From Hymenobacter yonginensis (GTDB lineage: Bacteria; Bacteroidota; Bacteroidia; Cytophagales; Hymenobacteraceae): DNA of 64,000 nt. The translations under genes were made by a program, and so were the position numbers. The notes under the pieces were generated by a model. That model made no database searches and was not told the origin of the DNA. It saw only the letters and a program-made list of their open reading frames with translations. Location of the stretch: NCBI RefSeq assembly GCF_027625995.1, contig NZ_CP115396.1:3100001-3164000 (forward strand), given 5' to 3'. This document shows, one piece after another, positions 1 through 15,969 of the stretch (position 1 is the stretch's first letter; every line of letters begins with the position of its first letter).

Positions 1-1
1 C

Positions 2-607
2 ACCAGTGCCGTCCAGGCGGCCGAAGTCCTGCGCACCCAGTCCGTGGATTTGCTGTTTCTGGACGTGGAGATGCCTTTGATGTCGGGCATCGACCTGCTC
101 CGTACGCTGCAGAACCCACCCCTGGTGGTGCTCATCACCAGCAGCCAGCAGTACGCCGTCGAGGCCTTCGAGCACGATGTGGTCGACTATCTGGTGAAGC
201 CCATCAGCTATGCCCGGTTCCTGAAAGCCTCGCAGCGCGCCCTGGAACTGGCCACTACCCGCTCCGAGCCCGAAGCCGCCACGGCCACCGAAACCGCCGA
301 TTTCACCTTCATGAAGGTGGATACCAAGCTAGTGAAGGTCATTTTTGATGAAGTGCGCTACGTAGAGGCCCTCGGCGACTACGTGCACGTGGTGACGGGA
401 CAGAGCAAGCTCATCGTGTACAGCACCATGAAAGCGGTGGAAGAGAAGTTTCCGGCCGGCCTTTTCGTACGGGTGCACCGCTCGTTTATCGTCAACCTGA
501 AACGCGTCCAGGCCATCGAGGACAACTCCATCATCATTGATGGCAAGCACATTCCCATCGGCCAGACTTACACGCGCGACGTATTTCAGCGGCTCAATAA
601 GTTCTAG
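2..607 (+). CDS. LytTR-family response regulator (5' end outside window)
   Basis: This is the C-terminal part of a two-component response regulator that binds DNA through a LytTR domain. The open frame runs in from the window edge, so the start is missing. The receiver domain shows the phospho-acceptor aspartate in 'FLDVEMP' (about positions 53-76), the conserved Thr/Ser region 'LITSS' and the switch lysine in 'YLVKP'. From about position 302 to the stop a typical LytTR domain follows ('EVRYVEALGDYVHV', 'RVHRSFIVNL'). Family knowledge: the partner is usually a membrane histidine kinase of the LytS/YehU type encoded immediately upstream, which cannot be seen here. The target genes are unknown. 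Confidence 0.93.
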   Translation, partial: TSAVQAAEVLRTQSVDLLFLDVEMPLMSGIDLLRTLQNPPLVVLITSSQQYAVEAFEHDVVDYLVKPISYARFLKASQRALELATTRSEPEAATATETADFTFMKVDTKLVKVIFDEVRYVEALGDYVHVVTGQSKLIVYSTMKAVEEKFPAGLFVRVHRSFIVNLKRVQAIEDNSIIIDGKHIPIGQTYTRDVFQRLNKF

Positions 608-643
608 CGCCGCTTCTGTTCACTGTACTTGGTTTGGCCAGCC

Positions 644-1264
644 GTGCACACCTGCCGTTTCTTTGCTCTACTTCTGCTGACCGCCTTGCTAGCGGCCCTG
701 CCACGGGCTACCCGCGCCCAAACGGCCGGCGACACCATCAGCGTGGAGTGTCCACCGGCACGTCTTGTAGAGCTGTGCGTGGAGCTGGACGCCCGCGCTT
801 CCGTCGACACGGCCGCCGGGCCTCTTAGCTACCGCTGGCTGATGGGAGATGGCACCACCCTTACCGGTGCCACCGTAGCGCATTGCTACGCCGAGCGCCG
901 CCGCTACACCGTGCAGCTGGACGTGGTAGACGAGAAAACCGGCGAAGTACGGGCCGCGGAAAAGCTCATTCCCGTTGATTTCACCCAGGAAATTGTCCTC
1001 AATTTCAAAGCCTCGCCAGCTAATGGCCACGTAGGCCAGCGGCTCACATTCGATGCGCTGGACTCGCAGCTGCCGCTTTGCGAGAATGTGATAGTGCTAT
1101 GGGATTTCCGGGACGGTACGGTGGCGAATGGTCGCCGGGTAGAGCACTCCTTCCGTCGCCCCGGCAACTACATCGTAAGAATGGCCCTGCGCGGCAACGG
1201 CCCCGACACCTGCCCCGACAGCCACTGCGTCACCCGGCAGGTAAGCATCCTGATCGAACCATAA
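644..1264 (+). CDS. Secreted PKD-domain protein
   Basis: Exported protein of about 206 residues. A hydrophobic signal peptide ('FALLLLTALLAALP') ends in an A-Q type cleavage region. Two PKD-like beta-sandwich domains follow: one containing 'YRWLMGDGTTL...HCYAERRRYTVQLDVVD' (residues about 35-110) and one containing 'VLWDFRDGT...HSFRRPGNYIVRMAL' (about 120-205). Both have the W-x-F/M-G/R-D-G and H-x-Y/F-x-x-x-G/R-x-Y patterns of the family. PKD domains are non-catalytic and mediate extracellular binding. The GTG at 644 gives a compact signal peptide; a TTG at 629 is possible. It follows the regulator by a few tens of bases and may be co-transcribed. Ligand unknown. Confidence 0.8.
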   Translation: MHTCRFFALLLLTALLAALPRATRAQTAGDTISVECPPARLVELCVELDARASVDTAAGPLSYRWLMGDGTTLTGATVAHCYAERRRYTVQLDVVDEKTGEVRAAEKLIPVDFTQEIVLNFKASPANGHVGQRLTFDALDSQLPLCENVIVLWDFRDGTVANGRRVEHSFRRPGNYIVRMALRGNGPDTCPDSHCVTRQVSILIEP

Positions 1265-1452
1265 TCCCTTCATTAAAAGTAATTTACAGACCATTTTTAC
1301 AGTGTACGTATCGTACACAGGGGGCCATGCATACTATTGAATAACAATATATTTCAATAATATGCTTTTAACACTGCACTTATCTAATAAACAATTGCTT
1401 TATTTGCGTACCCAAACAACTCACACCGTCTGTTTGCTCTTACGCACTCCCT

Positions 1453-1854
1453 ATGAAAAGCCTCTTTGCCATTCTGTTAGCTGGCAGCCTTAGCGCTGCG
1501 TCGTTCTCCGTTCAGGCTCAACAAGCCTCCGACCGGCTGCGGGCCGAAGCCATGGAAAACACCCGCCTGCTGGCCAATCGGATTGCGCTGGATGATGCCC
1601 GCTCCGTACGGGTCCGCCAGCTGACGTACGACCGACTGGTGCAGGAAAGCCAGATTGCGACCATGTACGGCGACGATCCGGCAATGCGCCAGAACAAATT
1701 GCGCGTAGTAGAAGAAGAATACACGGCAAAGCTCAAAGACCTGCTGACCTCGGTGCAGTTCGACCGGTATAAGGCGCTGGTAGCGGCCGGCACGGCTCCC
1801 GCTTCCCGGCATACTGCCTCGGTGCTCAACGCCTCGGCCACCTCGCCCAAGTAA
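1453..1854 (+). CDS. Small secreted helical protein, function unknown
   Basis: A 133-residue protein with a clear signal peptide (MKSLFAILLAG..., cleavage after about residue 22, 'VQAQQ'). The mature part is charged and predicted helical, with a long Arg/Glu-rich segment around residues 30-100 ('RVRQLTYDRLVQESQ', 'VVEEEYTAKLKDLLTSVQF'). The ending 'LTSVQFDRYKAL' resembles the LTxxQ-type periplasmic helical proteins (Spy/CpxP-like), but the motif is not exact, so this is only suggestive. It is probably monocistronic: 188 AT-rich bases lie upstream and a strong terminator hairpin follows at 1881. No enzymatic motif is visible. Confidence 0.75.
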   Translation: MKSLFAILLAGSLSAASFSVQAQQASDRLRAEAMENTRLLANRIALDDARSVRVRQLTYDRLVQESQIATMYGDDPAMRQNKLRVVEEEYTAKLKDLLTSVQFDRYKALVAAGTAPASRHTASVLNASATSPK

Positions 1855-1880
1855 CCTACTCCACACTGCTACCTGCTACA

Positions 1881-1922
1881 CGAGCAGGGGGTGTAGCCAG
1901 CTACATCCCCTGCTCGTTTTTG
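1881..1922 (+). terminator. Rho-independent terminator after the small secreted protein gene
   Basis: Near-perfect 16-bp stem (1881-1896 with 1901-1916) with a 4-base loop, followed by a T-run. It lies 27 bases after the stop codon at 1854. Confidence 0.85.
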
Positions 1923-2059
1923 TTTGCGTCTACGCAGCAACTGATTCAACATTGAGTACTGAGTAATAAGCAAGCTGTATCTACAGTTCGCTCAACAACC
2001 TGCTTGGCATTGCTTTAACAAGCACCTAAACACCCAGCACTTAGGCCTGACCACTTAGG

Positions 2060-3589
2060 CTATACCAGCTTTTTGTCCTGCTCAGCATTGTATAGTGCTG
2101 TCGTCTGCAGAATGTCCAGCGTAATCTGCCACAGCTGCTCGTAAGGCACAATTTCGATTTCAGCGAAGGCCTCGCCGGGAGGTGGCGATGACTGCAGCTT
2201 CTTCAGTATCGCCTCGCCCTTTTTGCGGCTGGTTACCGGGTTGAATTCCTCCTTAACCACAATTGCCAGCAGCCGGAAAAACAGCTGGCTTCGCACGTTG
2301 CCGGTTTCCCGCAGGTACCGCTGCTGGTATTTGCGCAGGCTTTCCAGCCGGGTAAGGATGTTTTCCAGGTCGCGCTGGCGCAGAAAGTGCAGAAACTGCA
2401 GAATCAGCACCGCCACGTTGTAGCCCTGTTTGTCGCGGCTGTGGTCGGGCACGGTTTGCACAAACGTGGTAAAGTTGCGCATCCGCAGCGGCGACAGTTC
2501 TGGCCGCACAAACTGCAGGTACGCCATGTACAGGTCCCAGCGTTGCTGGGCCACAGGCTGTTGCTTGTCGAAGTACACGTTTTTGCGGGCAGTACCCAGT
2601 AGTTCCAGTGCCTGCCCATACTGCCCGGCATGAATGGCCAGCAGCAGATAGATTTCCAGGTAATACAGCCAGTTGACCGAGGAGTGGTGAAACTCCTTGG
2701 CATGAAGCTCTGCCAGCCGCAGGCCACTTTCCACTTTCCGGCTCCGGAAGTGTGCGTACACGCTCATGTATGCGTTGTAACGCTTATCAAAGCGCTTGTT
2801 GTTGATCTTGCCCTTTTCCAGCAAGCGGGTTGTCTTACTGGTTACCTCTATTATTTCCTGATAATTACCTACCAGCTCCTCCTTGATGAGCTGTGCCCTA
2901 TAGTGATAGTGGAACGTGATGAATGTACCCGCGGCTTTGTAGAGCTCTGCCAGTTTCAGTACCACAGCATCCATCTTATCCAAGACCGTGCGCCGGCTGC
3001 GCACGTTGTAGGCTACCATCCCTTTCACGTCCCAGTACAGCTGCGCAGCCTCTTCCTCGATTACCAGTGTTTTCTTGCTTTTATCCAACAGCAGCCGGTT
3101 GGCTTGGTAGCGGGCGGGCATTCGGATATCCGCGTATATGCCGCGCAATAGCTGCCCGAACAGCACCACGTATTGCGTCATTTCGTGGGTTTGCGCCAAA
3201 CGCTGGCCCTTTCTGCTCAACGATTCAGCGGCCTTCAGCTCTCCCTCCGAGTACAGAACACTCACCTGCATATACAGATTAAGCACCTGATATTCATATC
3301 GCCGCGACACCAGATGGCGGCTGTCGGTTTCATCCAGGAAATACAGGTGATTAAGCAGTTTCTGCTGAACCCTCGACTTCAGCTTGCGAAACGCGGCGTA
3401 CCGGGTCTGGTCTGCTTTGCCATATAAGGTCTTGACGATTTGCTGCTGCGACTTCGGTTGGCCATTCACCAATTGTTGCACCAGCTGCATTTCCTTGTTG
3501 GAAGAATGACGGGCCGTAAAGTCAAGCAACGGAAGTACTTTCAGCTTCCTGTCTGTCACAATACGGGCCAAATTTATCAGTTCATCCAT
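2060..3589 (-). CDS. Large helical-repeat protein, function unknown
   Basis: A 509-residue protein with no signal peptide or membrane segment. It appears almost entirely alpha-helical with TPR-like spacing of large and small residues (e.g. 'GYNVAVLILQFLHFLRQ', 'LYYLEIYLLLAIHAGQYGQALELLGTA'). The first 90 residues form a distinct basic region ('YAAFRKLKSRVQQKLLNHLYFLD') that could be a small nucleic-acid- or protein-binding domain; no classical HTH can be assigned by eye. It is divergent from the repeat-peptide gene at 3960 across a 370-base AT-rich intergenic region. Similar uncharacterised proteins are, to my recollection, common in Hymenobacter and Spirosoma. A regulator or scaffold role is inference. 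Confidence 0.85.
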   Translation of the reverse strand: MDELINLARIVTDRKLKVLPLLDFTARHSSNKEMQLVQQLVNGQPKSQQQIVKTLYGKADQTRYAAFRKLKSRVQQKLLNHLYFLDETDSRHLVSRRYEYQVLNLYMQVSVLYSEGELKAAESLSRKGQRLAQTHEMTQYVVLFGQLLRGIYADIRMPARYQANRLLLDKSKKTLVIEEEAAQLYWDVKGMVAYNVRSRRTVLDKMDAVVLKLAELYKAAGTFITFHYHYRAQLIKEELVGNYQEIIEVTSKTTRLLEKGKINNKRFDKRYNAYMSVYAHFRSRKVESGLRLAELHAKEFHHSSVNWLYYLEIYLLLAIHAGQYGQALELLGTARKNVYFDKQQPVAQQRWDLYMAYLQFVRPELSPLRMRNFTTFVQTVPDHSRDKQGYNVAVLILQFLHFLRQRDLENILTRLESLRKYQQRYLRETGNVRSQLFFRLLAIVVKEEFNPVTSRKKGEAILKKLQSSPPPGEAFAEIEIVPYEQLWQITLDILQTTALYNAEQDKKLV

Positions 3590-3959
3590 CAGTAAAACGC
3601 CTTATACAGGTTCTTATCGTTATTTTTCAGATTGACTACTCCACGAAATTACTGTCACAAAACAACACAGTTTTTCCTTTACTGCCACTACTATCCTGTT
3701 GGACATTTGTAGTGGTGAAATATGTTTTTTTTAATCGAAAAATGTCACACTTTGACTGAATTTCAACACAGAATTAAGCCCGGTCAGACTTATCAGCAAC
3801 AACGCAGCAGGCCTATGCCAGAAAATACAATGTAATTAAACATATTTTTTATACATATTATACCAATCACTTTTCCGCAAATACTGTCCTTTACGTGGCT
3901 TGATCCAGCGCCCACCTTTGTGTCAATCAATCACTTGAAACACACAAAACCCAAGCGCC
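3590..3959. other. AT-rich divergent intergenic region with two promoter-like sites and a micro-ORF
   Basis: 370 bases, much more AT-rich than the surroundings. On the + strand CCTTTAC at 3676-3682 is followed after 19 bases by GACATTTG (3702-3709). A second site with CCTTTAC ending at 3894 and CACCTTTG (3913-3920) lies before the repeat-peptide gene. Downstream of the first site an ATG at 3722 opens a 37-codon frame ending at 3835 (MFFLIEKCHT...). It is too short to call as a gene but starts 12 bases after the -7-like box. The promoter of the minus-strand gene at 3589 must also lie here. Confidence 0.5.
3885..3920 (+). promoter_or_regulatory. Promoter-like element before the repeat-peptide gene
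   Basis: TGTCCTTTAC (3885-3894), an 18-base spacer, then CACCTTTG (3913-3920), a one-mismatch version of the Bacteroidetes -7 box TAnnTTTG. The same 10-base upstream element with the identical 18-base spacing recurs at 8311-8346 before another small gene. The start codon is 39 bases downstream. Confidence 0.5.
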
Positions 3960-4241
3960 ATGCTAGAATTAATCGCCCTCGCCCTGCTCCAGTTTTCGAG
4001 CTTCACCACTGAGTTCTCCGGCGGCATCCGTCCCGCAAACTCCCCCACGATGACGATGGCTGCCGACCACGGCACCGGCGGCTGGACGGGTATCGACGCT
4101 GACCACGGCACTGGCGGCTGGACGGGCATTGACGCTGACCACGGCACCGGCGGCTGGACGGGTATCGACGCTGACCATGGCACTGGCGGCTGGACGGGCA
4201 TTGACGCTGACCACGGCACTGGCGGCTGGGTTGGTCGCTAA
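3960..4241 (+). CDS. Tandem-repeat small peptide (five copies of a 12-residue unit)
   Basis: A 93-residue product with a 35-residue leader (MLELIALALLQFSSF..., partly hydrophobic, then 'GGIRPANSPTMTMAA'). Four perfect copies of DHGTGGWTGIDA follow, then a fifth cut to DHGTGGWVGR. There is no Cys or Lys in the repeats; each unit has one Trp, two Thr and two or three acidic or His residues. The leader/repeat organisation recalls multi-copy peptide precursors (secreted pheromone-like or modified peptides), but no modification enzyme or protease is adjacent. A structural low-complexity protein is the alternative. It is followed after 89 bases, without a terminator, by a peptide-type ABC import operon. 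I do not recognise the family. Confidence 0.65.
   Translation: MLELIALALLQFSSFTTEFSGGIRPANSPTMTMAADHGTGGWTGIDADHGTGGWTGIDADHGTGGWTGIDADHGTGGWTGIDADHGTGGWVGR
4065..4238 (+). repeat. 36-bp in-frame tandem repeat, 4.8 units
   Basis: Units begin at 4065, 4101, 4137, 4173 and 4209. Units 1 and 3 share the synonymous choices ACC and GGTATC, and units 2 and 4 share ACT and GGCATT. The array therefore grew by duplication of a 72-bp double unit. The few differences between units in these bases are synonymous, apart from the altered end of the last unit. Confidence 0.97.
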
Positions 4242-4330
4242 GCTAAGCGGCAACCAAGCGTGTGCGGTAGTCGCTACCACAAATTTCCTGGCTAACTTGC
4301 CTGTCGGGAAACTCTGCCGGCGATGCGCAC

Positions 4331-6061
4331 ATGAAGTCTATACTGTCCGGGGTATTGCTACTGCTTACAGGTTGGTACGGATTGGTTAGCTGCGACTCAG
4401 CAGCCAAGCCATCGGCAGCCATTCGTATTCGCTGGGCCGACGATCCACGCTCGCTTGACCCGCTGGCGGTGCCTACCCCGCAAGCCACGGAAGTTCTTAA
4501 CCTCTTGCACTGCAGCTTGCTCATGGGCGAGCCCGACAAGCAGCAGATAGTCCCGTGGCTCGCCGACTCGCTACCACGCATCGAGCAACAGGGGCCGCTT
4601 ACGTTGCTGCATTACCGCCTTCGGCCAGAGGCTACCTGGGACAACGGCACGCCGGTACTGGCGCAGGATGTAGCCTTCACGCTCCGTCTGCTGAATTGCC
4701 CCGGGCTCCCAACCGAGCTTTCCCGCCTCCAGTACGGCGACATTCTCGATATCCGGCTGGATGCATCAGACCCGCGGCGCTTTACGCTGGTTCGCGCCAG
4801 CTCTTCGCTGGATATGGTGCTGGCCTCTGGCGACTATTCCATCGTGCCGGAATATGCGCTGGATCCGGCAGGGCAGCTACGCGCTGTTCCGCTTGCGCTA
4901 CTGAAAACCGATACCGTTGCGGCCATCCGGCAATATCCGGCCATCCGGGCTTTTGCGACCCGTTACCGCCAGGCCCAGCTCGGCCAGCACCCGGAACGCC
5001 TGCCAGGCTGCGGCCCCTATACAGTGGCCGCGTGGCGCCCAAACCAGTATTTGCGCCTTCAGCGCAAAGCCAACTGGTGGGCCAACCGCCTGTCCCGGCC
5101 CGGCAGCTGGCTGCAAGCAAAGGCTGCACAGCTCGAATACCGCGTCATTCCGGATGATGCCACCGCTACTCTGGCCCTACGCAGAGGGAACCTGGATTTG
5201 TACCCGATGCCATCGGCCCGCATATTCACGCAGCTGAAGAACTCAGCCGACAGCACCCGCCTGACCTTCGCCACGGCCGACACCTACGAGTCGACGATGG
5301 CGGGCTTCAACACCCAGCACGCATTTCTGCGCGATGCCGCAACGCGCCGCGCACTCACGCTGCTGTTTGATGTTCCGAGGCTGATTCAGGCTACTCAGCC
5401 TGGGCTGGCTTACCGCAGCCCCAGCCTGATTTCACCACGGGATAAGCAGGCGTTCAACGACAGCCTGGCTCTACCCCAATTTTCTCCCACCCAGGCGGCT
5501 GCCCTTCTGCAACAGGCGGGCTGGCAGAAACACCCCGATGGCACCTGGTGGAAAGGCCGCACGGGTCCATTGGCTTTCAGTATAAGCTACCGCAGCGAAG
5601 CCGCGGCCCACGAAACCGTGGCCCTGCAGTTCCGCGAGGCCGCCGATAAGCTGGGCATTGCCGTGCAGCTGCGCCCGACGGAAACCAGCCTGCTCCAGCA
5701 GCGCCTTGCAGCCGGCGAGGTGGAAATATTCATCCGGACGATATCAGGCAACCCGTTCGCCTATAATTTCAAGCCCATCCTGCATTCACAGGGTATTGGG
5801 CTCTTCAATTTCACCCGATTCAGCTCACCTGCCGCCGACCATTTAATAGAGGCTATAGCCACTGCAAACCGCTTGGATGTGCGCAACCAGCTGCTGCACC
5901 GTTTTCAGCGGCTTCTGCAGCAGCAGGCTCCTCTTACGATACTGTATTTCTCGCGCAACCGGGTGGTAGCTTCCCGCCGGCTGCAGCCGGTGCAGGTCAC
6001 CAGCGTGCGGCCCGGCTACAATGCCCTCCAGCTGAAACTGGCAGCCCTTCCGGTCCGGTAA
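4331..6061 (+). CDS. ABC transporter substrate-binding lipoprotein, oligopeptide/dipeptide type (SBP family 5)
   Basis: A 576-residue lipoprotein. The signal sequence ends in a lipobox-like 'GLVSC' with Cys22 as the acylation site. The body matches the DppA/OppA family: 'IRWADDPRSLDPLAV' near the N-terminus, 'YRLRPEATWDNGTPVLAQDVAFTLRLL' (the family signature region), 'GCGPYTVAAWRPNQYLRLQRKANWW', and a C-terminal 'PILHSQGIGLFNFTRFSSPAAD'. These proteins capture peptides (sometimes nickel or sugars) at the membrane and hand them to a DppBC-type permease, here encoded directly downstream. Substrate cannot be read from sequence. The repeat-peptide gene upstream makes a peptide ligand an attractive inference. 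Confidence 0.9.
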   Translation: MKSILSGVLLLLTGWYGLVSCDSAAKPSAAIRIRWADDPRSLDPLAVPTPQATEVLNLLHCSLLMGEPDKQQIVPWLADSLPRIEQQGPLTLLHYRLRPEATWDNGTPVLAQDVAFTLRLLNCPGLPTELSRLQYGDILDIRLDASDPRRFTLVRASSSLDMVLASGDYSIVPEYALDPAGQLRAVPLALLKTDTVAAIRQYPAIRAFATRYRQAQLGQHPERLPGCGPYTVAAWRPNQYLRLQRKANWWANRLSRPGSWLQAKAAQLEYRVIPDDATATLALRRGNLDLYPMPSARIFTQLKNSADSTRLTFATADTYESTMAGFNTQHAFLRDAATRRALTLLFDVPRLIQATQPGLAYRSPSLISPRDKQAFNDSLALPQFSPTQAAALLQQAGWQKHPDGTWWKGRTGPLAFSISYRSEAAAHETVALQFREAADKLGIAVQLRPTETSLLQQRLAAGEVEIFIRTISGNPFAYNFKPILHSQGIGLFNFTRFSSPAADHLIEAIATANRLDVRNQLLHRFQRLLQQQAPLTILYFSRNRVVASRRLQPVQVTSVRPGYNALQLKLAALPVR

Positions 6062-6064
6062 CGT

Positions 6065-7117
6065 ATGCTGGGGCGCTTGGGTATCCGGCTGGGCCGGCAG
6101 CTGCTGGTAATGTGGGGCATTCTCACACTGCTGTTTCTGCTCACCCGGACGCTGCCCGAAGAGCAGCAGTTGTTGGCGCGCTTCGGTGGCATACCTACGG
6201 GCGCGGCTCCCACCGCCCGGCAGATTCAGGCCGCCCAGCAGCAGGCCCGCCACCGGCTGGGGCTCGATTATCCGCTGTTCTACTTTTCCCGGCACAGCGC
6301 TCCGCCCACGCAGATGCTGGCGCTGCGGTGGCAATGGGAAGGCCGCCACAACCAGTACCACCACTGGCTGGCAGGGCTTTGGCACGGAAACCTGGGCTAC
6401 TCCTACCAGACCCAGGAACCGGTATTGCCTCTGCTGGCCCAGGCATTGCGCACCACGGTGCCACTTACGCTGCTGGCTCTGCTGGTGCTGGTGCTGCTTA
6501 GCGGGGCACTTGGCATAAAGCTGGCCCAGGCCCGGCGACTTGGCCCGCTCCTGACGGTGCTGTTTGCGCTGGATGCACTGCCGCTGTTTGCAGTGGCCTC
6601 GCTGCTACTGCTGCTGCTGGCCAACCCCGACTTTCTCGCGCTTTTTCCGGCTTATGGTCTGGCAGATGAGGCGGACCCGGGCAGTTCTTTGACGTATCTG
6701 AGCTATCTGGTGTTGCCGGCCGCCAGCCTAGTGCTCACCGGCATTGCCGAGCCGGCAATTCAGCTGGCTACTGCGCTGCGCCACGAGTTGCAGCAACCGT
6801 ACGTGCTGGCTGCGCGTGCCAAAGGCCTGTCGGAGCGGCAGGTGCTCTGGCGCCATACCCTGCGCAACGCCGCATTGCCCAGCCTTGTACTCTTCACCGA
6901 TCTGCTGCCCAATCTGCTGGCGGGCTCGGTGGTGGTGGAGCTTATTTTTGCTCTGCCGGGCATAGGGCGGCTGCTCGCCGAAGCCGCCACCGCCCGCGAC
7001 TATCCGGTATTGTTAGGCGGTGTGCTGCTGCTTACGGTGTTGCGTCAACTGTCGCTCTGGGTGGCAGATGGGCTGCACTACCTGCTCGACCCACGCCTTA
7101 GTCCGGCTGCCACGTGA
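6065..7117 (+). CDS. ABC transporter permease, DppB/OppB type
   Basis: A 350-residue inner-membrane protein. N-terminal 'GRLGIRLGRQLLVMWGILTLLFLLTRTLP' is the standard first helix of DppB-like permeases. It is followed by a periplasmic stretch and five further hydrophobic segments. The cytoplasmic EAA loop is clear: 'RHELQQPYVLAARAKGLSERQ...LRNAALPSLV' (residues about 240-280), the site that docks the ATPase. The start codon lies 3 bases after the stop of the binding protein, and the end overlaps the next permease by 4 bases (GTGA), so the genes are translationally coupled. Confidence 0.93.
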   Translation: MLGRLGIRLGRQLLVMWGILTLLFLLTRTLPEEQQLLARFGGIPTGAAPTARQIQAAQQQARHRLGLDYPLFYFSRHSAPPTQMLALRWQWEGRHNQYHHWLAGLWHGNLGYSYQTQEPVLPLLAQALRTTVPLTLLALLVLVLLSGALGIKLAQARRLGPLLTVLFALDALPLFAVASLLLLLLANPDFLALFPAYGLADEADPGSSLTYLSYLVLPAASLVLTGIAEPAIQLATALRHELQQPYVLAARAKGLSERQVLWRHTLRNAALPSLVLFTDLLPNLLAGSVVVELIFALPGIGRLLAEAATARDYPVLLGGVLLLTVLRQLSLWVADGLHYLLDPRLSPAAT

Positions 7118-8103
7118 AACACCAACCACCTTTCTACCGCTGGGGCCAGGGCGTAGGCTGGAGCTGGCTGCTGCTACTGCTGGCCGCAGCCCTGCTCGCC
7201 GACCTGCTACCCCTACCTGCTTTTCCGGATCTGCTGCATACGAGCGCCCCACCCCTCACGCCCGGCCACCCGCTGGGTACCGACCCGCAGGGCCACGATG
7301 TTCTGGGCAGCCTGGTGCATGGCGCGCGCACGGTGCTACTGATGAGTGTACCGGCTACGCTGCTCGCCACGCTGCTGGGCGTGGTTTTAGGCGGAGGAGC
7401 CGGCTATTGGGGCAATACCGGCCTACGGCTGCCCTTAGCGGTCCTGGTTACGGGTGGCATAATCGGGCTGCTGTACCTGCTGCTGCAGGCCCCCGCCAGC
7501 GGCTGGTCCGCTATCTGGTGGCCCGCAGTGCTGCTGAGTATCGGTGCTGGTGGGGCTGGCCTGCTGGCCCGTCGCCGGTGGTTGCAGCGTCCCGTAGCCT
7601 TGCCCATAGACACCTGGTTTTCACTAGCTATTGTGATGTTGGCCGCATTGCCACGCCTGGTAGTGGTGCTGATAGTAGCAGCTTCTATCGAGCCCAACGC
7701 CATATTCATTACCGCCCTACTGGTGGTAGTTTCGTGGCCCGTACCGGCCCGGTTGATGCGCGCCGAGACCCGCCGAATCCGGCAGCTGCCCTATCTGGAA
7801 GCGGCCCGGGCCTTGGGGCTGCCTACCTACAGCCTGCTGTTGCATCATGTGTTGCCTAACAGTTGGCGCGTGCTACGCGCATCCCTGCCTATGAATCTGG
7901 CGGTCCTGATAGGCTTGGAAACCACCCTATCTTTCTTGGGAGTGGGGCTGCCGCCGGAACTGCCAAGCTGGGGCCGGCTGCTGGCAGCCAGTCGTTTATC
8001 GCCGGACAGCTGGTGGCTTATTGTGTTTCCCGTGGCAGCCCTGGTGCTCACTGCGCTAGCTTTACGCCAAGTGCTTCCGGCCACCAAAGCCCGGAGCAAT
8101 TAA
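7114..8103 (+). CDS. ABC transporter permease, DppC/OppC type
   Basis: A 329-residue second half of the peptide-type permease pair. It starts with GTG within the 4-base overlap. The first helix is 'GWSWLLLLLAAALLADLLPL' and a DppC-type 'HPLGTDPQGHDVLGSLVHGARTVL' motif follows; this motif is characteristic of OppC/DppC. An EAA loop is present ('RRIRQLPYLEAARALGLPTYS...VLPNSW'), and the C-terminus shows 'GLETTLSFLGVGLPPELPSWGRLL'. No ATP-binding protein of the DppD/DppF type follows: the next 300 bases are non-coding and no such gene lies elsewhere in the window. The importer must use an ATPase encoded elsewhere or be incomplete. Confidence 0.93.
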   Translation: MKHQPPFYRWGQGVGWSWLLLLLAAALLADLLPLPAFPDLLHTSAPPLTPGHPLGTDPQGHDVLGSLVHGARTVLLMSVPATLLATLLGVVLGGGAGYWGNTGLRLPLAVLVTGGIIGLLYLLLQAPASGWSAIWWPAVLLSIGAGGAGLLARRRWLQRPVALPIDTWFSLAIVMLAALPRLVVVLIVAASIEPNAIFITALLVVVSWPVPARLMRAETRRIRQLPYLEAARALGLPTYSLLLHHVLPNSWRVLRASLPMNLAVLIGLETTLSFLGVGLPPELPSWGRLLAASRLSPDSWWLIVFPVAALVLTALALRQVLPATKARSN

Positions 8104-8411
8104 AGCGTGCCCACTGATTTTCAATGTCACATCTGGGCATCTATAAAGCATTTTATTCGCTTCGGGCTAAGCCTGCATAGCCCTACTTTTCATCACAAAT
8201 CGTTGACTGTAAAAAATATAATAATTATTAAATATTTAATCAGCGTCGACACAACCTGCGTCTGAGTGCATTACGGCGCCGAAAAAGTATAGTCACAAAT
8301 ACGCGGCAACTGTCCTTTACAGCGGTAGCCCTGGCCTGTAGTTTTGTAATGTGCTAAGGGTTCTAGGTAGTTCTCTCAGCATTTCTACAGGCTGTTCTCT
8401 ACTGGCTATCT
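8104..8411. other. Intergenic region between the permease operon and a small gene
   Basis: 308 bases with a strongly AT-rich block (about 8208-8242) and, near its end, a promoter-like element (see 8311-8346). No convincing coding frame and no clear terminator for the permease operon was seen. Confidence 0.5.
8311..8346 (+). promoter_or_regulatory. Promoter-like element before the small gene at 8412
   Basis: TGTCCTTTAC (8311-8320), an 18-base spacer and a perfect TAnnTTTG box TAGTTTTG (8339-8346). The upstream 10-mer and the spacing are identical to the site before the repeat-peptide gene. Confidence 0.6.
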
Positions 8412-8636
8412 ATGGCCTCCTTACTTCTCAAACGCCGGCAAGGACACGCATTGCGCTACTTGCTTCTGGAAATGGCAGCTCGCCAGCGCGCTGCTACTAC
8501 GCTCGCCGGATTCCAGACGATTGATGGAGAAATGGTGTCTTACGTCACAGGAGAGCAGGCCATCCGGTCGGGCACTGCGGTGCTGATTGGCGGGCTGCTG
8601 GTAGGAACGGTTTTGCCTCAATTCGACAATTACTGA
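8412..8636 (+). CDS. Small protein with a C-terminal hydrophobic segment, function unknown
   Basis: A 74-residue product. The N-terminal half is basic and helical ('LLKRRQGHALRYLLLEMAARQRAATT'); the C-terminal half contains a glycine-rich hydrophobic stretch ('GTAVLIGGLLVGTVLP') ending in 'QFDNY'. It has its own perfect TAnnTTTG promoter 65 bases upstream and a strong terminator at 8719, which together argue that it is a real transcription unit. It shares its promoter element with the repeat-peptide gene. It is too small to assign a family. A non-coding RNA with a chance frame is the main alternative. Confidence 0.5.
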   Translation: MASLLLKRRQGHALRYLLLEMAARQRAATTLAGFQTIDGEMVSYVTGEQAIRSGTAVLIGGLLVGTVLPQFDNY

Positions 8637-8718
8637 TTCAATAGATTTTATTTTAGTATCCCGGCTGGCAGTGCCCCAGAGGCATTCCATCCCGTGAACA
8701 ATGTTGCAATAGGTGTGT

Positions 8719-8752
8719 AAAAACCCCGCCGGTTCTGCCCGCGGGGTTTTTG
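8719..8752 (+). terminator. Terminator hairpin
   Basis: AAAACCCCGC (8720-8729) pairs with GCGGGGTTTT (8741-8750) and is followed by more T. Its A-run and T-run make it usable from both directions, serving the small gene at 8412 and possibly the minus-strand gene ending at 8807. Confidence 0.8.
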
Positions 8753-8806
8753 CGTTTATCACTTTCTGGCCCTGACCGGCAGGCTGCGTGTGCGGGGGCG
8801 AGCCAC

Positions 8807-9712
8807 TCAGGTGGCGGCCGTCTGGCGCGCCACTTCAGCAATACCTTCTTCGAAGGAATGGGGCCGGTAGCCTAGCTCCCGGCGTGCTTTCTCAATGATA
8901 AAGCCGGTACGCAACGGCCGTTGCGCGGGCTGCGAGAATACACTGGCATCCACTTTTTCAATCAGGGCGCTATCCAGCTGGAAATAGGCGGCCACCCGGA
9001 GTGCCATTTGGTACGGGGTCAGCATTTCGTCACTGCTGATGTGGTAGAGGCCGGTGGCGTGGTGCCGGGCCACCAGCCAGCAGCCCTGTGCCAGATCCTC
9101 GGCTAGGGTAGGCGTCCGGAACTGGTCATTCACCACCTTAATGGGCTTTTTTGCCCGTAGCGAATCGCGCACCCAGAGCACGATGTTGGTGCGGCCGTAC
9201 TCATGCGCCACCCCATACACCAGCACGGTGCGCACAATGGCCCACGGTGCACGGCAGGCCTGCACCAAGCGCTCGGCCGCTACCTTGCTGGTACCGTAGA
9301 AATTCACCGGAGCCGGGACGGCGTCCTCGGCCAGCGGGCCAGCCTCGCCGCTAAATATAAAGTCGGTACTGAGGTGGGTGAAGTGAATCTGGTGCGTTTC
9401 GCAGACGGCTACCAGATGCCCGACGGCCGTCACGTTTTGGATCCAGCAGGCTTCCTGGTTTAGCTCGCACTCATCCACGTTGGTCATGGCGGCCGTGTGG
9501 ATGAGGTGCGTGGGCTGCTCCTGCGCCAGCACCGCCGCCACCTGGGCGCCATCCGTAACATCCAGCGGCACGAAGCGCACCTCGGGGTAGAGCGTGGCCA
9601 GCTTGTTGGGCCCGCGCGAAGTGGCAATGAGCGTCAGGCCGGGCTGGGTGCGGAGCAAGGCCACTAGCTTTTGCCCCAGCAAGCCATTGGAACCCGTGAC
9701 GAGAATACGCAT
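8807..9712 (-). CDS. RmlD-like NAD(P)-dependent sugar-nucleotide reductase/epimerase (extended SDR)
   Basis: A 301-residue cytoplasmic protein. It has an N-terminal Rossmann motif 'TGSNGLLG' (residues 7-14), 'HTAAMTNVDECE' as in dTDP-4-dehydrorhamnose reductases, a catalytic Ser/Thr region 'HLSTDFIFSG' and the Y-x-x-x-K pair 'YGTSK'. Length and motifs fit RfbD/RmlD, which reduces dTDP-4-keto-rhamnose. However, no other dTDP-rhamnose genes are adjacent, so the exact substrate is open; in Bacteroidota many stand-alone copies are annotated as generic SDR sugar-nucleotide-binding proteins. Confidence 0.88.
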   Translation of the reverse strand: MRILVTGSNGLLGQKLVALLRTQPGLTLIATSRGPNKLATLYPEVRFVPLDVTDGAQVAAVLAQEQPTHLIHTAAMTNVDECELNQEACWIQNVTAVGHLVAVCETHQIHFTHLSTDFIFSGEAGPLAEDAVPAPVNFYGTSKVAAERLVQACRAPWAIVRTVLVYGVAHEYGRTNIVLWVRDSLRAKKPIKVVNDQFRTPTLAEDLAQGCWLVARHHATGLYHISSDEMLTPYQMALRVAAYFQLDSALIEKVDASVFSQPAQRPLRTGFIIEKARRELGYRPHSFEEGIAEVARQTAAT

Positions 9713-9753
9713 AGCACTACCAAGTGAATGTGGAACGGGACGCAGAACGGGCC

Positions 9754-10395
9754 TTAGTAGGTGTAGCCGTAGAGCTCCGTGATTTTCTTTTTCTTCAGCT
9801 TTTCCACCTTCATCGTCATTTTGATGTCAGTCAGGGGCCGGTCGCGGCCGTCTTTGGGCTGGGCAGCAATCTTGTCGATGACGTCGAGGCCGCTCACTAC
9901 CTGGCCGTACACGGTGTACTGGCCGTTGAGGTGCGGTGTGCCGCGGTGGTTCTGCACCAGATAAAACTGCGAGGCACTGCTGGCCCGCTCGGGGTTCACG
10001 AAGTCGGCCTGGCGGGCGGCGGCCAGCGCGCCGAACTTGTGGGTGAATTCGGGCCGGATTTCGGCCGGGATGGTGCCTTCGTTGGGTTGGCCCTGGCCGT
10101 CGTTGGTGGGGTCGGCGTCTTTGCTGCCGGGGTCGCCGCCCTGCACCATGAAGTCGGAGATGATGCGGTGGAAGGTGGTGCCGTTATAGAAGCCGCTCTC
10201 GGCCAGCTTCAGGAAGTTGGCTTTGTGCTTGGGTGTGGCATCGAAGAGCACCAGCTTGATGTCGCCGAACGAGGTGCTGATGGTGACGAGCTGATCTTTC
10301 TTGCTGCTCTTAGGAAATTTGGCCGCGTAGAGGGCCGGCGCCAGCAGCAACAAAAACACCCCAAGCAGAACCGAAAAGCGGGAAGCAAAACGCAT
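9754..10395 (-). CDS. Exported cyclophilin-type peptidyl-prolyl isomerase
   Basis: A 213-residue protein that catalyses cis-trans isomerisation of prolyl bonds. A signal peptide (residues about 1-24, 'LLGVFLLLLAPALYA') precedes a single cyclophilin domain. Seen motifs are 'GDIKLVLFDATPKHKANFLKLAESG', 'GTTFHRIISDFMVQGGDP' (active-site Arg in FHR, Gln in FMVQGGD), 'SQFYLVQNHRGTPHLNGQYTVYGQVVSGLDVIDKIA'. The expected location is the periplasm, consistent with a folding role. It is divergent from the YjdF-like gene. Confidence 0.94.
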   Translation of the reverse strand: MRFASRFSVLLGVFLLLLAPALYAAKFPKSSKKDQLVTISTSFGDIKLVLFDATPKHKANFLKLAESGFYNGTTFHRIISDFMVQGGDPGSKDADPTNDGQGQPNEGTIPAEIRPEFTHKFGALAAARQADFVNPERASSASQFYLVQNHRGTPHLNGQYTVYGQVVSGLDVIDKIAAQPKDGRDRPLTDIKMTMKVEKLKKKKITELYGYTY

Positions 10396-10567
10396 AAACA
10401 GGAAGGATATGAAATTGAGAAGGCGAAAGTAAGGGGTTTGACGCAGAGCCGCCCGGTTTGCACGCCACCCATCTTCCGGTATAAGGTTGAATATATTTTT
10501 TCACGAATATCCTCCCTAATGCCGCCAATGGCGTATGAGGCGCCAGTTTCCCTCTCACTCTTTTTTC

Positions 10568-11218
10568 ATGACGACTACCTTACCCCCTACCGCTACCCCC
10601 AGCCTGGCTCCACCGCCGCCCCACTGGTTTCCGAAATTGCTGCTGGCCATCTACCTGATTGAGTTTGTGGCCCTGGGCATCAGCCCGGCCGAGCGCGGCA
10701 CCTGGTGGGCCGAAAACGTGCCGATTTTCCTGATTGTGCTGGCCCTGACGGTGCTGTACGTGCGTGGCACGCGCTTCTCCAACTTGGCCTACGCCCTGAT
10801 GAGCGTGTTGCTGTTTATGCATACTGTAGGTGGCCACTACACCTTCGAGAAAGTGCCGTTCGACTGGTTCAACAACCTGTTTGGCTTCAAGCGCAACATG
10901 TACGACCGGGTGGCGCACTTCTCGGTGGGCTTCTACGCCTACGCCATCATCGAGCTGACGGACCGCTACGGCACCATTCGCAACCGCGCCATCAGCTACC
11001 TGTTTCCGCTGTGCGTCATCGGCACGGTGGCCATGGCCTACGAGCTTATTGAGTGGGTGTACGCCGAAGTGGCCGGCGGCGACGCCGGCGCCGCCTTCCT
11101 GGGCAGCCAGGGCGACATCTGGGATGCGCAGAAAGACATGCTGGCCGATACCAGCGGCGCCATTTTCGCACTGATTCTGTACGCCCTCTTTGGCCGTGGC
11201 CGCCGCGAGGCCGCCTAG
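10568..11218 (+). CDS. YjdF/DUF2238-family inner-membrane protein
   Basis: A 216-residue polytopic membrane protein. About six hydrophobic segments are visible, including 'LLLAIYLIEFVALGISP', 'VPIFLIVLALTVLYV', 'YALMSVLLFMHTVGGHYTF', 'VAHFSVGFYAYAIIELT', 'LFPLCVIGTVAMAYELIEWV' and 'SGAIFALILYALFG'. The motifs 'GGHYTFEKVPF', 'YDRVAHFSVGF' and 'GDIWDAQKDMLADTSGA' are those of the DUF2238 family (E. coli YjdF), whose function is unknown. The ATG at 10568 is preferred over one at 10535 because it starts just before the Pro-rich N-terminus and first helix. A terminator follows at 11241. Confidence 0.88.
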   Translation: MTTTLPPTATPSLAPPPPHWFPKLLLAIYLIEFVALGISPAERGTWWAENVPIFLIVLALTVLYVRGTRFSNLAYALMSVLLFMHTVGGHYTFEKVPFDWFNNLFGFKRNMYDRVAHFSVGFYAYAIIELTDRYGTIRNRAISYLFPLCVIGTVAMAYELIEWVYAEVAGGDAGAAFLGSQGDIWDAQKDMLADTSGAIFALILYALFGRGRREAA

Positions 11219-11240
11219 CGCCTGCCGATACCCATTCAGC

Positions 11241-11277
11241 AAAAAGCCTCGTTTCTGCACAGAAACGAGGCTTTTTT
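11241..11277. terminator. Bidirectional terminator
   Basis: AAAAAGCCTCGTTTCTG pairs with CAGAAACGAGGCTTTTTT around a 2-base tip. It lies between convergent genes (plus ending 11218, minus ending 11306) and has A- and T-runs on both sides. Confidence 0.9.
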
Positions 11278-11305
11278 ATGCAGCCCAGACTCTTGGAAGC
11301 GGCGC

Positions 11306-12244
11306 TTACGCGTCTCTCTCCCGGCGGATTTCGTCGAGAATATGCTGGCCGCCGCGGGCCAGTACGCTTTCGGCAATGCGGATTCCCAGTGCTTCGGCCT
11401 GGCTGGCATCGGCGGTCTGGTCTTCTTCCAACAGCTTGCCGCCGTCGAGGCTGATGAGGCCGCCGTGCAGGTGCACCACGGCGCCGTCGGGGCTGAGGGT
11501 GGCCAGCGCGAAGCTGGGGATGCTGCAGCCGCCTTCCATGGTGCGCAGGAAGGCCCGCTCGGCGGCTAGGCACACGTGGGTGGCCGGGTGGTCGAGGATG
11601 CGGTGCAGCTCGGTTTTGAGGGCCGGTTCCAGGGTGCGGGCGCACTCAATGGCCACGCTGCCCTGCCCGGTGGCGGGCACAAACTGCGTTTCGGGCAGCA
11701 CGTGCCGGATCAGGTGGTCGTATTCCATACGGTGCACGCCGGCGTAGGCCAGCACCAGCGCGTCGTACTGGCCTTCTTCGAGCTTGCGCAGGCGCGTCTG
11801 GAGGTTGCCGCGGGCTTCGGCGGTGCTGGCGTTGGGCAGAAACCGGCGCAGCATGGCCTTGCGGCGGGTGCTACTGGTGCCCAGCACGAGGTTCGGCTTG
11901 CGCAGATCCAGGTCGGCCTGAAAGCTCACCACCACGTCGTTCACCTGCTCGCGCTCCATAAACGCCAGCAGCTCTAAGTCGTCGGGGATGGTGCTTTGCA
12001 CGTCTTTAGCGCTGTGCACAGCAATATCGATGTGGCCGGTGCGCAAGCCCACTTCCAGCTCTTCGGTGAACACACCTTTGGCCCCGATTTTATCCAGGGA
12101 GCGGTCCAGCACCACGTCGCCCTTGGTGGTGATGATGACGATTTCGGAAGCCAGCCCGGCCTGCTCCAGGCAAGCCGCTACGTGGTGGGCCTGCCACAGC
12201 GCCAGCTTGCTGCCCCGGGTGCCAATGCGAATGGGCTTTTTCAA
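11306..12244 (-). CDS. hemC: Hydroxymethylbilane synthase (porphobilinogen deaminase)
   Basis: Polymerises four porphobilinogen molecules to hydroxymethylbilane in tetrapyrrole (haem) biosynthesis. Motifs: 'IRIGTRGSKLALWQA' at the N-terminus, 'GVFTEELE', 'HSAKDV', 'GTSSTRRKA', 'RGNLQTRLRKL', 'TGQGSVAIECA' and 'RTMEGGCSIP', whose Cys carries the dipyrromethane cofactor. The family start is just before 'KKPIRIGTRGS', giving a TTG start at 12244 and 312 residues, the usual length. The longer frame would begin at a TTG (12349) that is actually part of a -7 box, TACCTTTG at 12347-12354 on this strand, which supports the shorter start. Confidence 0.95.
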   Translation of the reverse strand: MKKPIRIGTRGSKLALWQAHHVAACLEQAGLASEIVIITTKGDVVLDRSLDKIGAKGVFTEELEVGLRTGHIDIAVHSAKDVQSTIPDDLELLAFMEREQVNDVVVSFQADLDLRKPNLVLGTSSTRRKAMLRRFLPNASTAEARGNLQTRLRKLEEGQYDALVLAYAGVHRMEYDHLIRHVLPETQFVPATGQGSVAIECARTLEPALKTELHRILDHPATHVCLAAERAFLRTMEGGCSIPSFALATLSPDGAVVHLHGGLISLDGGKLLEEDQTADASQAEALGIRIAESVLARGGQHILDEIRRERDA

Positions 12245-12346
12245 GTAAGAATTCTGAATTAGAAAGTAAACGTGTAAGCTTGCGATGCGCAGCGGCTTTG
12301 CGGCTGGTTCTGCGCCGACATTGACGCCGGCCCTCAGCAGGTCTGG

Positions 12347-12354
12347 CAAAGGTA
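12347..12354 (-). promoter_or_regulatory. -7 promoter box of hemC
   Basis: TACCTTTG on the minus strand, a perfect TAnnTTTG, about 100 bases before the TTG start. No clear -33 TTTG is visible. Confidence 0.5.
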
Positions 12355-12442
12355 CGGTGCGGCTGGTTTAGGCGGGTGGCTATAGCGGTTTTAGCGGCAG
12401 CTATACCTTTTTAGCAAACTGTATTTTCTGCCTCTATTCGCT

Positions 12443-13582
12443 CTAAGCGGCCATTTTCAGCAGCGTGGCCATCCGCAGCGACACATCCACGAACACCATG
12501 CGCGGGTTAGCGTTGCGCTCTATGTGGTAGTGCGCGTCGTTCAGCTCGCGGGTGATAGGGTCGGCATTGAGGGGCGTGACGAAGCGGCTGAAGCCCTGCA
12601 CAAACGGCTGCTCCTGCGCCGGCAGGTGCGGCACCAGCTGCGGATCGAGGCCGAAGAGCAGAACCTTGCGCAGCAGCGTGAGGGCGTACTGCAGAAACTC
12701 CTTCTGGTTTTCGCGGCCCAGCTTCTGGAATTCGTCGCTCCGCTCCAGCATCTCGCTCACCTTATTGCTGAAGCAGGTGCGCATCCAGCCCGCAAACAGG
12801 GCAAAGTAGTCGTGGTCGGTGGCGGCGGCGTGCTGGGCGGCCAGGGCGGCGCCGGGGTTGCCTTCCGCGAGCTGGGCCAGTTGCCGGGCCTTCACTTCGG
12901 GCACCTGGTGCTCGTCGCGCAGCCAGTTGGTGAGGTCTTGCTCGGAGAGCGGGCGCACCACCACGGGCTGCACCCGGCTGATGATGGTGGGCAGCAGCTG
13001 CTCGGGCGCGTGGCTCACCAACAGAAACACGGTGGCCGTGGGCGGCTCTTCCAGCAGCTTGAGCACGGCATTGGCCGCGGCCGGGTGCATCAGCTCGGGC
13101 TGCCAGATCACCACCAGCTTGTACTGCGCCTCAAAGGCCTTGAGGCTCACCAGCCGCAGCAGCTGCAGGCTTTCTTCCTTGGAAATACTGCCCTGCTTGT
13201 TTTCGGCCCCGATGTGCTGCATCCAGTCGTTGAGGCCCTGGTAGGGGCTGTCGAGCACGAAGGTGCGCCAGTCGGCCATGAACTTGCTGCTGGTAGCGTC
13301 CTTGGCCACGGCCTTGGTGGTCGTGACGGGCACGATGAAGTTCAGGTCGGGGTGGATGAGCTTGTCGATTTTCTGGCAGCTCGGGCAATGGCCGCAGGAA
13401 TCGTCGGCGTCGGGCGTGCGGCTCTCACAGTTCAGAAAAGCCGCGAAGGCCAGCGCCAGCGGCAGCGCCGCCGAGCCCTCGGCCCCGCGAAACAGCTGGG
13501 CGTGCGCCACGTGGTTTTGCTGCACGCTGCGCACGAGCAGCTGCTTCACCTGTTGCTGGCCGGGAATGTCGGAGAAACGCAT
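12443..13582 (-). CDS. holB: DNA polymerase III clamp-loader subunit delta'
   Basis: A 379-residue AAA+-fold protein of the replication clamp loader. 'FSDIPGQQQVKQLLVRSVQQNHVAHAQLFRGAEGS' is the standard N-terminus. A zinc module with four Cys follows ('CESRTPDADDSCGHCPSCQK'), then 'KLVVIWQPELMHPAAANAVLKLLEEPP', 'FLLVSHAPEQLLPTIISR' (sensor 1/SRC region) and a helical C-terminal collar. The P-loop region 'GAEGSAALP' lacks the usual Lys, consistent with a non-hydrolysing delta' subunit. The ATG at 13582 is preferred over the frame start at 13654 because 'MRFSDIPGQ' is the family start. Confidence 0.92.
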   Translation of the reverse strand: MRFSDIPGQQQVKQLLVRSVQQNHVAHAQLFRGAEGSAALPLALAFAAFLNCESRTPDADDSCGHCPSCQKIDKLIHPDLNFIVPVTTTKAVAKDATSSKFMADWRTFVLDSPYQGLNDWMQHIGAENKQGSISKEESLQLLRLVSLKAFEAQYKLVVIWQPELMHPAAANAVLKLLEEPPTATVFLLVSHAPEQLLPTIISRVQPVVVRPLSEQDLTNWLRDEHQVPEVKARQLAQLAEGNPGAALAAQHAAATDHDYFALFAGWMRTCFSNKVSEMLERSDEFQKLGRENQKEFLQYALTLLRKVLLFGLDPQLVPHLPAQEQPFVQGFSRFVTPLNADPITRELNDAHYHIERNANPRMVFVDVSLRMATLLKMAA

Positions 13583-13669
13583 GGAACTGGGGGACGCGCG
13601 GTGGGCTTGGTTGATTGGAACGGCGGTGACCCGCGTGGCACCATCGTGCGCCACGCGGGCCGGGCCGGA

Positions 13670-14908: not shown

Positions 14909-14916
14909 GGAAACTT

Positions 14917-15084
14917 AGTGCTTAGTGCCTGATGCCTGGTGCTTGGCTTAAGCCAGCGCTCCAGGCGCAGCAAGTAATAAGCTGCAAAGGTGGGCAGAAA
15001 AGAAAAAACTCCTGCCAGGCGAGCCGGCAGGAGTTTTTAGAAAATCAGTTGTACGAAGCACCAGGCACTAAGCACCAGGCACTC
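14917..15084. repeat. Inverted repeat between glmU-like gene and rpmE2
   Basis: Imperfect arms of about 28 bases (14917-14945 and 15057-15084) built from short units such as AGTGCCTGATGCC and CACCAGGCACTA. They flank a core that contains the rpmE2 terminator. No coding capacity. Confidence 0.7.
15003..15039 (-). terminator. Terminator of rpmE2
   Basis: AAAAACTCCTGCC pairs with GGCAGGAGTTTTT around a short loop. On the minus strand it lies 51 bases after the rpmE2 stop and has a T-run. Confidence 0.85.
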
Positions 15085-15090
15085 AGAAAA

Positions 15091-15336
15091 CTACTTCTTC
15101 TTGTAGCGGGTCATGAACTTCTCTACGCGGCCAGCCGTGTCGAGCAGAACGTTTTTGCCGGTGTAGAAGGGGTGCGACTCCGAGCTAACTTCCACTTTCA
15201 CGACGGGATACGTCTTACCGTCTTCCATTGTGATGGTCTCGTTGGAGTTCATCGTCGAGCGGGTAACGAATTTGAAACCGCTGGAGCTGTCCTGGAATAC
15301 CACTTCGCGGTACTCGGGGTGGATGTCTTTTTTCAT
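15091..15336 (-). CDS. rpmE2: 50S ribosomal protein L31, type B
   Basis: An 81-residue ribosomal protein beginning '[23 protein letters not shown]'. It lacks the CxxC zinc ribbon of type A L31 and has the longer type B sequence ('[26 protein letters not shown]'). The ATG at 15336 is the family start; the upstream part of the open frame overlaps the promoter. The -33 TTTG and -7 TACTTTTG on this strand (15415-15418 and 15389-15396, 18-base spacer) form the best promoter match in the window, as expected for a strongly expressed gene. Confidence 0.97.
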
Positions 15337-15388
15337 GGTCGGAATACCGTTTGTGCCTAGTTGCCTGCCGATTTTGCGGAAGGGACTG

Positions 15389-15418
15389 CAAAAGTACACG
15401 TTACGCGCAACTTTCAAA
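15389..15418 (-). promoter_or_regulatory. Bacteroidetes-type promoter of rpmE2
   Basis: On the minus strand TTTG (15415-15418), an 18-base spacer, then TACTTTTG (15389-15396), matching the TTTG-N~19-TAnnTTTG consensus of the primary sigma factor. Confidence 0.8.
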
Positions 15419-15479
15419 AGCTTATCCGGCTCTTTTCTGCAATTCCGGTATCCGACAGCCTGAGCTACCGGAATTTGTT

Positions 15480-15942: not shown

Positions 15943-15969
15943 ATTGTTTAATCGTTGAAAATTGCTTGT

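Follow-up and report, generated by a model that had tools for sequence, protein, structure and literature searches.

What is the function of a small gene that encodes a leader followed by near-identical copies of a short peptide, and that lies between a divergent gene for a helical protein and the genes of a peptide-type importer? This question is raised by the gene at 3960-4241 of a 64,000-nucleotide stretch of Hymenobacter yonginensis (contig NZ_CP115396.1, positions 3,100,001 to 3,164,000 of the forward strand), hereafter called the window. The gene content of this cassette, its conservation, the conservation of the repeat units, a common promoter-like element and the predicted fold of the helical protein together lead us to an answer held with moderate confidence, namely that the cassette is probably a self-contained peptide-signaling circuit, in which an exported and processed peptide would be re-imported and sensed by the helical protein; export, processing, import of a Trp-containing peptide, receptor binding and DNA contact are the steps that we infer.

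The repeat gene and its relatives

The product of the repeat gene has a hydrophobic N-terminus, MLELIALALLQFSSF, and its leader and spacer together comprise residues 1-35. Four DHGTGGWTGIDA units of 12 residues each follow (4065-4100, 4101-4136, 4137-4172 and 4173-4208), and then a fifth unit, DHGTGGWVGR (4209-4238), directly before the stop codon; Tandem Repeats Finder placed the 36-bp array at 4065-4229, with scores of 281 for the 36-bp and 316 for the 72-bp period. At the protein level there is no difference between the four full units; pairwise they differ in 0-4 codons, every difference being synonymous and at the third position. The first 8 codons of the fifth unit show two changes relative to the fourth, one synonymous and one that alters the amino acid. 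An initial annotation of the window had described four identical units plus an altered fifth copy in the 93-residue product, which is confirmed here with coordinates assigned, and its statement that the units differ mainly at synonymous sites also held, pairs of full units differing at such sites solely.

GTDB genomes were scanned with the helical protein; of 297 confirmed stretches, the best 80 were retained (L081-L160). Conservation was counted in the 77 loci that extend at least 900 nt past the helical gene, which left out L123, L128 and L132, where the contig ends within 570 nt; two frame-shifted, spurious open reading frames (ORFs) of L120 were passed over. The propeptide gene was indeed present in 74 of the 77, as the divergent neighbor of the helical gene (hereafter the receptor gene), and because these loci had been picked via the helical gene and not via the repeat, this conservation excludes a chance ORF. 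Judged from such relatives, 3960-4241 is a propeptide gene. The substrate-binding protein (SBP) and both permeases were found in 72 of the 77, with the propeptide gene in between in all 72. The initial annotation had likened the locus to a system in which a multi-copy precursor is cut into short peptides that are re-imported or sensed, and had proposed looking in relatives for co-occurrence of the repeat gene with the importer and the helical gene; that co-occurrence was borne out and supports the likeness, of which export, processing, re-import and sensing are the putative steps. L117 and L126 have the propeptide gene without the permeases, an SBP-like stretch lying on the opposite strand at a distance of at least about 1.7 kb, while L110, L111 and L155 have neither importer nor propeptide. 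In L161-L180, from the family's remaining GTDB genera, the SBP was found in 20 of 20 loci, both permeases in 19 and a divergent small ORF, judged by eye, also in 19, all but L179, which has a receptor and an SBP but no permeases and no propeptide; outside the family, L181 has a propeptide with no importer nearby. Even where identity drops to 46% for the receptor and 42% for the SBP, the short gene is still there, in its usual place. In 20 same-genus neighborhoods, the order was receptor gene (divergent), repeat gene, SBP, permease 1 and permease 2, followed by genes that we take to be rmlD, peptidyl-prolyl isomerase and hemC; these neighborhoods were chosen through the repeat gene and are therefore informative for its neighbors only. 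Two tandem receptor homologues were seen next to one propeptide-importer operon in L161, L162, L164, L175 and L177.

Propeptides were compared over 95 loci, comprising 74 of L081-L160, 19 of L161-L180, L181 and L182; three pairs among them (L131/L170, L129/L178 and L159/L182) have the same propeptide and are probably duplicates from the same genomes. The regular expression used demanded a Trp core and is therefore fitted to the family, and eight propeptides that it missed (L092, L094, L108, L118, L153, L159, L164 and L182) were added by hand. A tally of 90 of 120 at E<=1 was set aside because many of its matches are due to chance. The precursor carries one Trp unit in 36 of the 95 loci and 2-18 in 59, and in some relatives it is longer than in the window, up to 297 aa. 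Single-copy forms account for 17 of the 19 propeptides of the family's other genera, an example being a MIELLIALLLQLGVLTGG... leader, a Thr-rich spacer and the C-terminal end ...GGTGNWDTKD. The leader is hydrophobic, with Lys or Arg within its first 12 residues in just 6 of the 95. The last Trp lies 3-7 residues before the C-terminal end in 85 of the 95, which points to this end as the carboxyl end of the mature peptide.

The units vary between species (GTGGWTGI, GSGGWGND, GTSGWGEG, GGSGWEND and others), and within a gene they are conserved: pairs of units from 47 genes had, over a six-codon core, a mean of 1.556 synonymous versus 0.105 nonsynonymous codon differences (raw counts, not normalized by site), all of the latter coming from L091, L098, L137, L145, L149 and L151. 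In the family's other genera, a criterion that used the leader only, and was blind to Trp, recovered divergent leader ORFs beside 16 of 25 receptor genes, compared with 11 of 173 control ORFs (Fisher p=1e-10). Across 60 loci, unit distance correlates with receptor distance when rmlD distance is controlled for (partial Mantel r=0.37, p=0.0005). As a separate observation, two loci titled Hymenobacter negativus BT442, L122 and L117, have the units GIGGWGGD and GSGGWGND, respectively, the latter being one of the loci that lack the permeases; the two share a species name, but their assembly prefixes differ and they are not shown to be one genome.

Receptor-like protein, importer and promoter-like element

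The initial annotation had called the divergent 509-residue protein tetratricopeptide repeat (TPR)-like, and the predicted fold agrees: it is a TPR-like superhelix, for which the top eight rows of the structural realignment were six Rap and two NprR entries. It is to be noted that other TPR proteins score near these rows, and that the Rap matches end at model residue 502. At the sequence level, no solved structure matched the receptor at E<=1 and the Pfam hidden Markov models (HMMs) matched no TPR family in the window's protein; among 70 members, the HMM support for TPRs was weak (TPR_12 in 2 and TPR_MalT in 1, E<=0.01), and there were scattered Pfam matches outside the TPR families, among them NNH6 (2 members) and Trans_reg_C (1 member). 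The length falls to 489-500 aa in a few relatives. A helix-turn-helix (HTH) model, HTH_24, matched 5 of 64 members, with a best E of 0.042, and the structural model of the N-terminal 160 residues, which is of low confidence, retrieved mostly generic TPR or helical segments. In 70 sequences, R73 and K77 are invariant and K53 nearly so, all in predicted helices.

The downstream SBP and permeases had been placed in a family that imports peptides, and the SBP_bac_5 and BPD_transp_1 matches (Table 1) bear this out; they belong to the peptide/nickel-type ATP-binding cassette families, with all NCBIfam models under their curated cut-offs. Cys21 of the SBP is invariant in 17 sequences, suggesting a lipoprotein. 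No ATPase gene was found within the cassette, and PF08352 was matched twice outside it in each of 10 genomes; because the ATPase matches sit elsewhere, an unlinked and probably shared ATPase may drive the importer. In G001, the two matches belong to a single 677-aa two-ATPase ORF; tblastn searches with the cassette proteins gave no match in the vicinity of the two-ATPase ORF in G001, G070 and G054. Each of the 10 genomes also has two SBP_bac_5 loci, one being the cassette. In L205 of G001, the fused double Dpp/Opp-type ATPase ORF (6369-8402, minus strand) has no cassette-type permeases nearby.

Three copies of a promoter-like element accompany these genes, the starts of copies A and B lying 212 bp apart in the intergenic region. 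The window contains exactly three full elements, all at the cassette, where 0.06 would be expected for the core pattern and 0.01 with the TTTG box. By position, copies A, B and C were recognized in 42, 44 and 51 of the 80 loci, other matches numbering 3 on the same strand and 5 on the opposite strand. Of 95 loci, 53 had the strict family pattern 78-105 nt ahead of the propeptide start, versus 0.13 expected from the same loci, and the relaxed pattern (CCTTT box, 15-32 nt, TTTG) was found in 92 of 95 versus 22 of 3800 control windows; other genera have a GTTAC variant of the element in the same layout. Over 10 genomes, the core pattern was not enriched (85 matches versus 131 for the reversed control), which counts against the wider family considered below and is expected if the element is confined to the cassette locus. 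In G001, 3 of the 6 core matches were the cassette's copies and the other 3 were without the TTTG box; among the core matches of the other genomes, two were inspected, in G013. That genome has an additional core-pattern match on another contig (C4, 3957-3982).

Copy C precedes the 8412 gene, whose protein had no match to a known family in Pfam, NCBIfam, PADLOC and PHROG scans. Relatives of this protein (...DGxxV...G.AL..GTAVLVGGLLVG...) lie behind copy C in many, though not all, of the loci listed, and by this sequence context the gene is a probable member of the regulon.

Table 1. Coordinates of the cassette and of its promoter-like elements in the window
Feature	Position	Strand	Basis
Putative intracellular peptide receptor/regulator, 509 aa, TPR-like	2060..3589	-	Predicted all-helical
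Promoter-like element copy A: TCAC-N16-TCCTTTAC ... TTTG	3655..3709	+	+63 to +66 from receptor gene in 42/80 loci
Middle half-site TGTCACA without CCTTT box	3743..3749	+	Conserved block in 21 aligned intergenic sequences
Promoter-like element copy B, directly upstream of propeptide gene	3867..3920	+	Strict and relaxed patterns in relatives
Multi-copy propeptide gene	3960..4241	+	93 aa: leader, spacer, 4 full units and truncated unit; conserved family
Repeat units, presumed mature peptide region, core GTGGW	4065..4238	+	
Oligopeptide-type substrate-binding protein	4331..6061	+	SBP_bac_5 (PF00496) E=1.4e-47
Permease 1, OppB/NikB type	6065..7117	+	BPD_transp_1 (PF00528) E=7.2e-27; Opp2B best, under curated cut-off
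Permease 2, OppC type	7114..8103	+	BPD_transp_1 (PF00528) E=2.6e-18; Opp4C best, under curated cut-off
Promoter-like element copy C, upstream of 8412 gene	8293..8346	+	3.5-7 kb from receptor gene in 51/80 loci
Conserved small protein, 74 aa, C-terminal GTAVLIGGLLVGT stretch	8412..8636	+	Relatives behind copy C element

The proposed circuit and rival explanations

In the circuit that we propose, the propeptide would be exported via its hydrophobic leader and cleaved into short Trp-containing peptides of about 8-12 residues. The dedicated SBP and the two permeases, whose families are established and whose ligand and ATPase partner are presumed, would carry the peptide into the cytosol with the help of the unlinked ATPase, and there it may bind the divergent protein of predicted TPR-like fold. 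Directly or via a partner, this protein could act on the recurring promoter element, which would make both the propeptide-importer operon and the 8412 gene responsive to the peptide. Because the whole block is syntenic, adjacency alone is limited evidence. The same peptide loop could also work with a Rap-like helical protein that binds or blocks another regulator, e.g. the response regulator at 44-607, and does not contact DNA; we regard this as unlikely, with perhaps a quarter of our belief. Rap proteins are the top structural matches, an HTH is not established, and the response regulator gene, assigned to its family by model match and presumably of the LytTR type (LytR/BtsR-like), shares the syntenic block with the cassette in the majority of the 20 loci; against this speak the divergent orientation across a common operator region and the conserved R73, K77 and K53, which are compatible with DNA binding.

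Products other than a signal were also weighed. A leader followed by repeated cores is reminiscent of multi-core precursor peptides, and antibacterial peptides can enter via peptide importers, which would suit a secreted antimicrobial or modified natural product with the importer serving uptake or self-protection and the helical protein as its regulator. The initial annotation had named a modified natural product as an alternative; nonetheless, reading of the ORFs of 1-16000, eight of them Pfam-scanned, revealed no obvious modification or export gene, and there was no match to a defense family, so that we consider this improbable, the neighboring genes of the relatives having been annotated by the window's own proteins only. 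Slightly more improbable still is an importer cassette for an external ligand, such as a metal complex or nutrient peptide, with the small gene encoding a periplasmic accessory protein or chelator: the SBP is matched by NikA and OppA-type models alike and the window's units contain His and Asp, but many units have no His (GGSGGWGND, IGGSGWEND), a single-copy C-terminal form exists, and the divergent receptor-like gene is retained. The other earlier alternative, a structural or low-complexity repeat protein, and with it a chance ORF, is hardly tenable. Gly-rich repeats, a variable copy number and a weak collagen-like PHROG match would fit it, whereas one-unit propeptides exist in relatives and argue against a structural repeat, the units are conserved against amino acid change and the genomic place is fixed; on the single-copy relatives (36/95) and the unit conservation, this candidate was ruled out. 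A defense system was likewise rejected, with no PADLOC match, and so was a phage origin, the repeat ORF having weak PHROG matches, to collagen-like or tail models with an E of 0.0044 at best, which we put down to low complexity. No known RNA family reached its gathering score in 1-12000, and the window has no tRNA.

Relation to known systems and to a wider family

Signaling by imported peptides via TPR receptors is described, in passages of PMC10075063 and PMC13220807, as a Gram-positive, Firmicutes trait. The initial annotation had likewise known peptide-sensing TPR regulators from Gram-positive bacteria, in line with the passages of PMC10075063, and none from Bacteroidota, and no report of such a Bacteroidota system was among the matches listed in the open-licence PMC literature. 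Five features of RRNPP systems are given in a part of PMC10075063: a propeptide of 10-100 aa, Sec secretion (PptAB for SHP/PrgQ), a receptor of 250-500 aa, TPRs, and direct neighborhood of the two genes. The window's propeptide, at 93 aa, lies within the range, and its receptor, at 509 aa, is 9 residues above the limit; TPRs are indicated by the predicted fold and weakly by HMM, and receptor and propeptide genes are divergent neighbors in 74 of 77 loci. The components of an Opp/Dpp system (family-5 SBP, two permeases, ATPase) are also found, the ATPase being unlinked and its partnership presumed. Transcription-factor members of RRNPP have an N-terminal HTH, and Rap has none. Like RRNPP systems (Rap, Rgg, NprR, PlcR, PrgX; also AimR), the cassette has a small propeptide with a presumed C-terminal signal beside the gene of a TPR-type receptor, a peptide-type importer, and a receptor whose predicted fold is nearest to Rap/NprR. 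Unlike these Gram-positive systems, it occurs in Gram-negative Bacteroidota, its propeptide gene is divergent from the receptor gene and has a dedicated SBP and permeases downstream, the precursor has up to 18 Trp units and a leader mostly free of basic residues, and the receptor lacks a sequence match to solved structures. We describe the cassette as RRNPP-like and not as an RRNPP member, because the receptor is 9 residues over and Sec export, an HTH and peptide binding are putative; the best reading is that it may work like an RRNPP system.

The cassette resembles the Opp/Dpp oligopeptide permeases in its SBP_bac_5 protein and two BPD_transp_1 permeases, and departs from them in lacking a linked ATPase and in NCBIfam scores that are all under cut-off. 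A recently reported cell-cell signaling pathway of Bacteroidota, N-acyl-cyclolysine (Linares-Otoya et al. 2025, as cited in a passage of PMC13419125), operates in the same phylum, but its signal is a small molecule and not a ribosomal peptide. A conserved Gram-negative counterpart of imported-peptide signaling in Bacteroidota would, if true, be a surprise and raise the question of how peptides pass two membranes; species-specific signal peptides would be readable from genomes, synthesizable and directly testable, and dozens of natural receptor-ligand pairs would be at hand for specificity work.

Within the order, 89 of 341 genomes have homologues of the helical protein (E<=1e-5), and in the phylum sample 15 of 296 do (E<=1e-20), three of the 15 being of the window's genus. 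In the phylum sample, a divergent leader ORF stood at 8 of 19 homologues versus 3 of 58 controls (p=4e-4), and in lineage f43 at 3 of 6 versus 0 of 9 (p=0.044). Several results count against extending the family: 11 of the 19 phylum-sample receptor genes have no such ORF; in the order's other families, leader ORFs occurred at 7 of 19 versus 8 of 148 controls, three of the seven (L188, L192 and L194) seeming spurious on visual inspection; and in lineage f27, the 4 of 28 receptor genes versus 0 of 14 controls were not significant (p=0.18). It is to be noted that these tests are not independent, because their locus sets overlap in part. Overall, the divergent leader ORFs next to receptor homologues in other parts of the phylum are a hint of a wider family. 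The leader ORFs of f43 end in QIDRRED, GIDRTED, NIDRAED and IFDRYED, and such IDRxED-like endings are possibly a second signal type. We entertain tentatively, at a little under even chances, a large peptide-pheromone superfamily of the Bacteroidota's own, with TPR-like receptors of about 500 aa, divergent propeptides and lineage-specific C-terminal signals (Trp peptides, IDRxED-like), in which the Hymenobacter branch would have evolved multi-copy precursors and a dedicated importer.

A few further observations were made along the way. Receptor homologues of another Bacteroidota family, with divergent leader ORFs and IDRxED-like ends, were seen in L214, L216, L225 and L229. The f27 genomes G766 and G772 have up to 11 receptor matches each, some of which may be pieces of one gene, and most of those fetched had no divergent propeptide by the leader criterion. 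In L191 (G188, contig C10), outside the family, a receptor homologue is convergent with permease 2, permease 1 and SBP genes, and its divergent leader ORF ends in TTWPVA. Within the window, short tandem repeats of 8 bp and 15 bp occur at 28907-29135.
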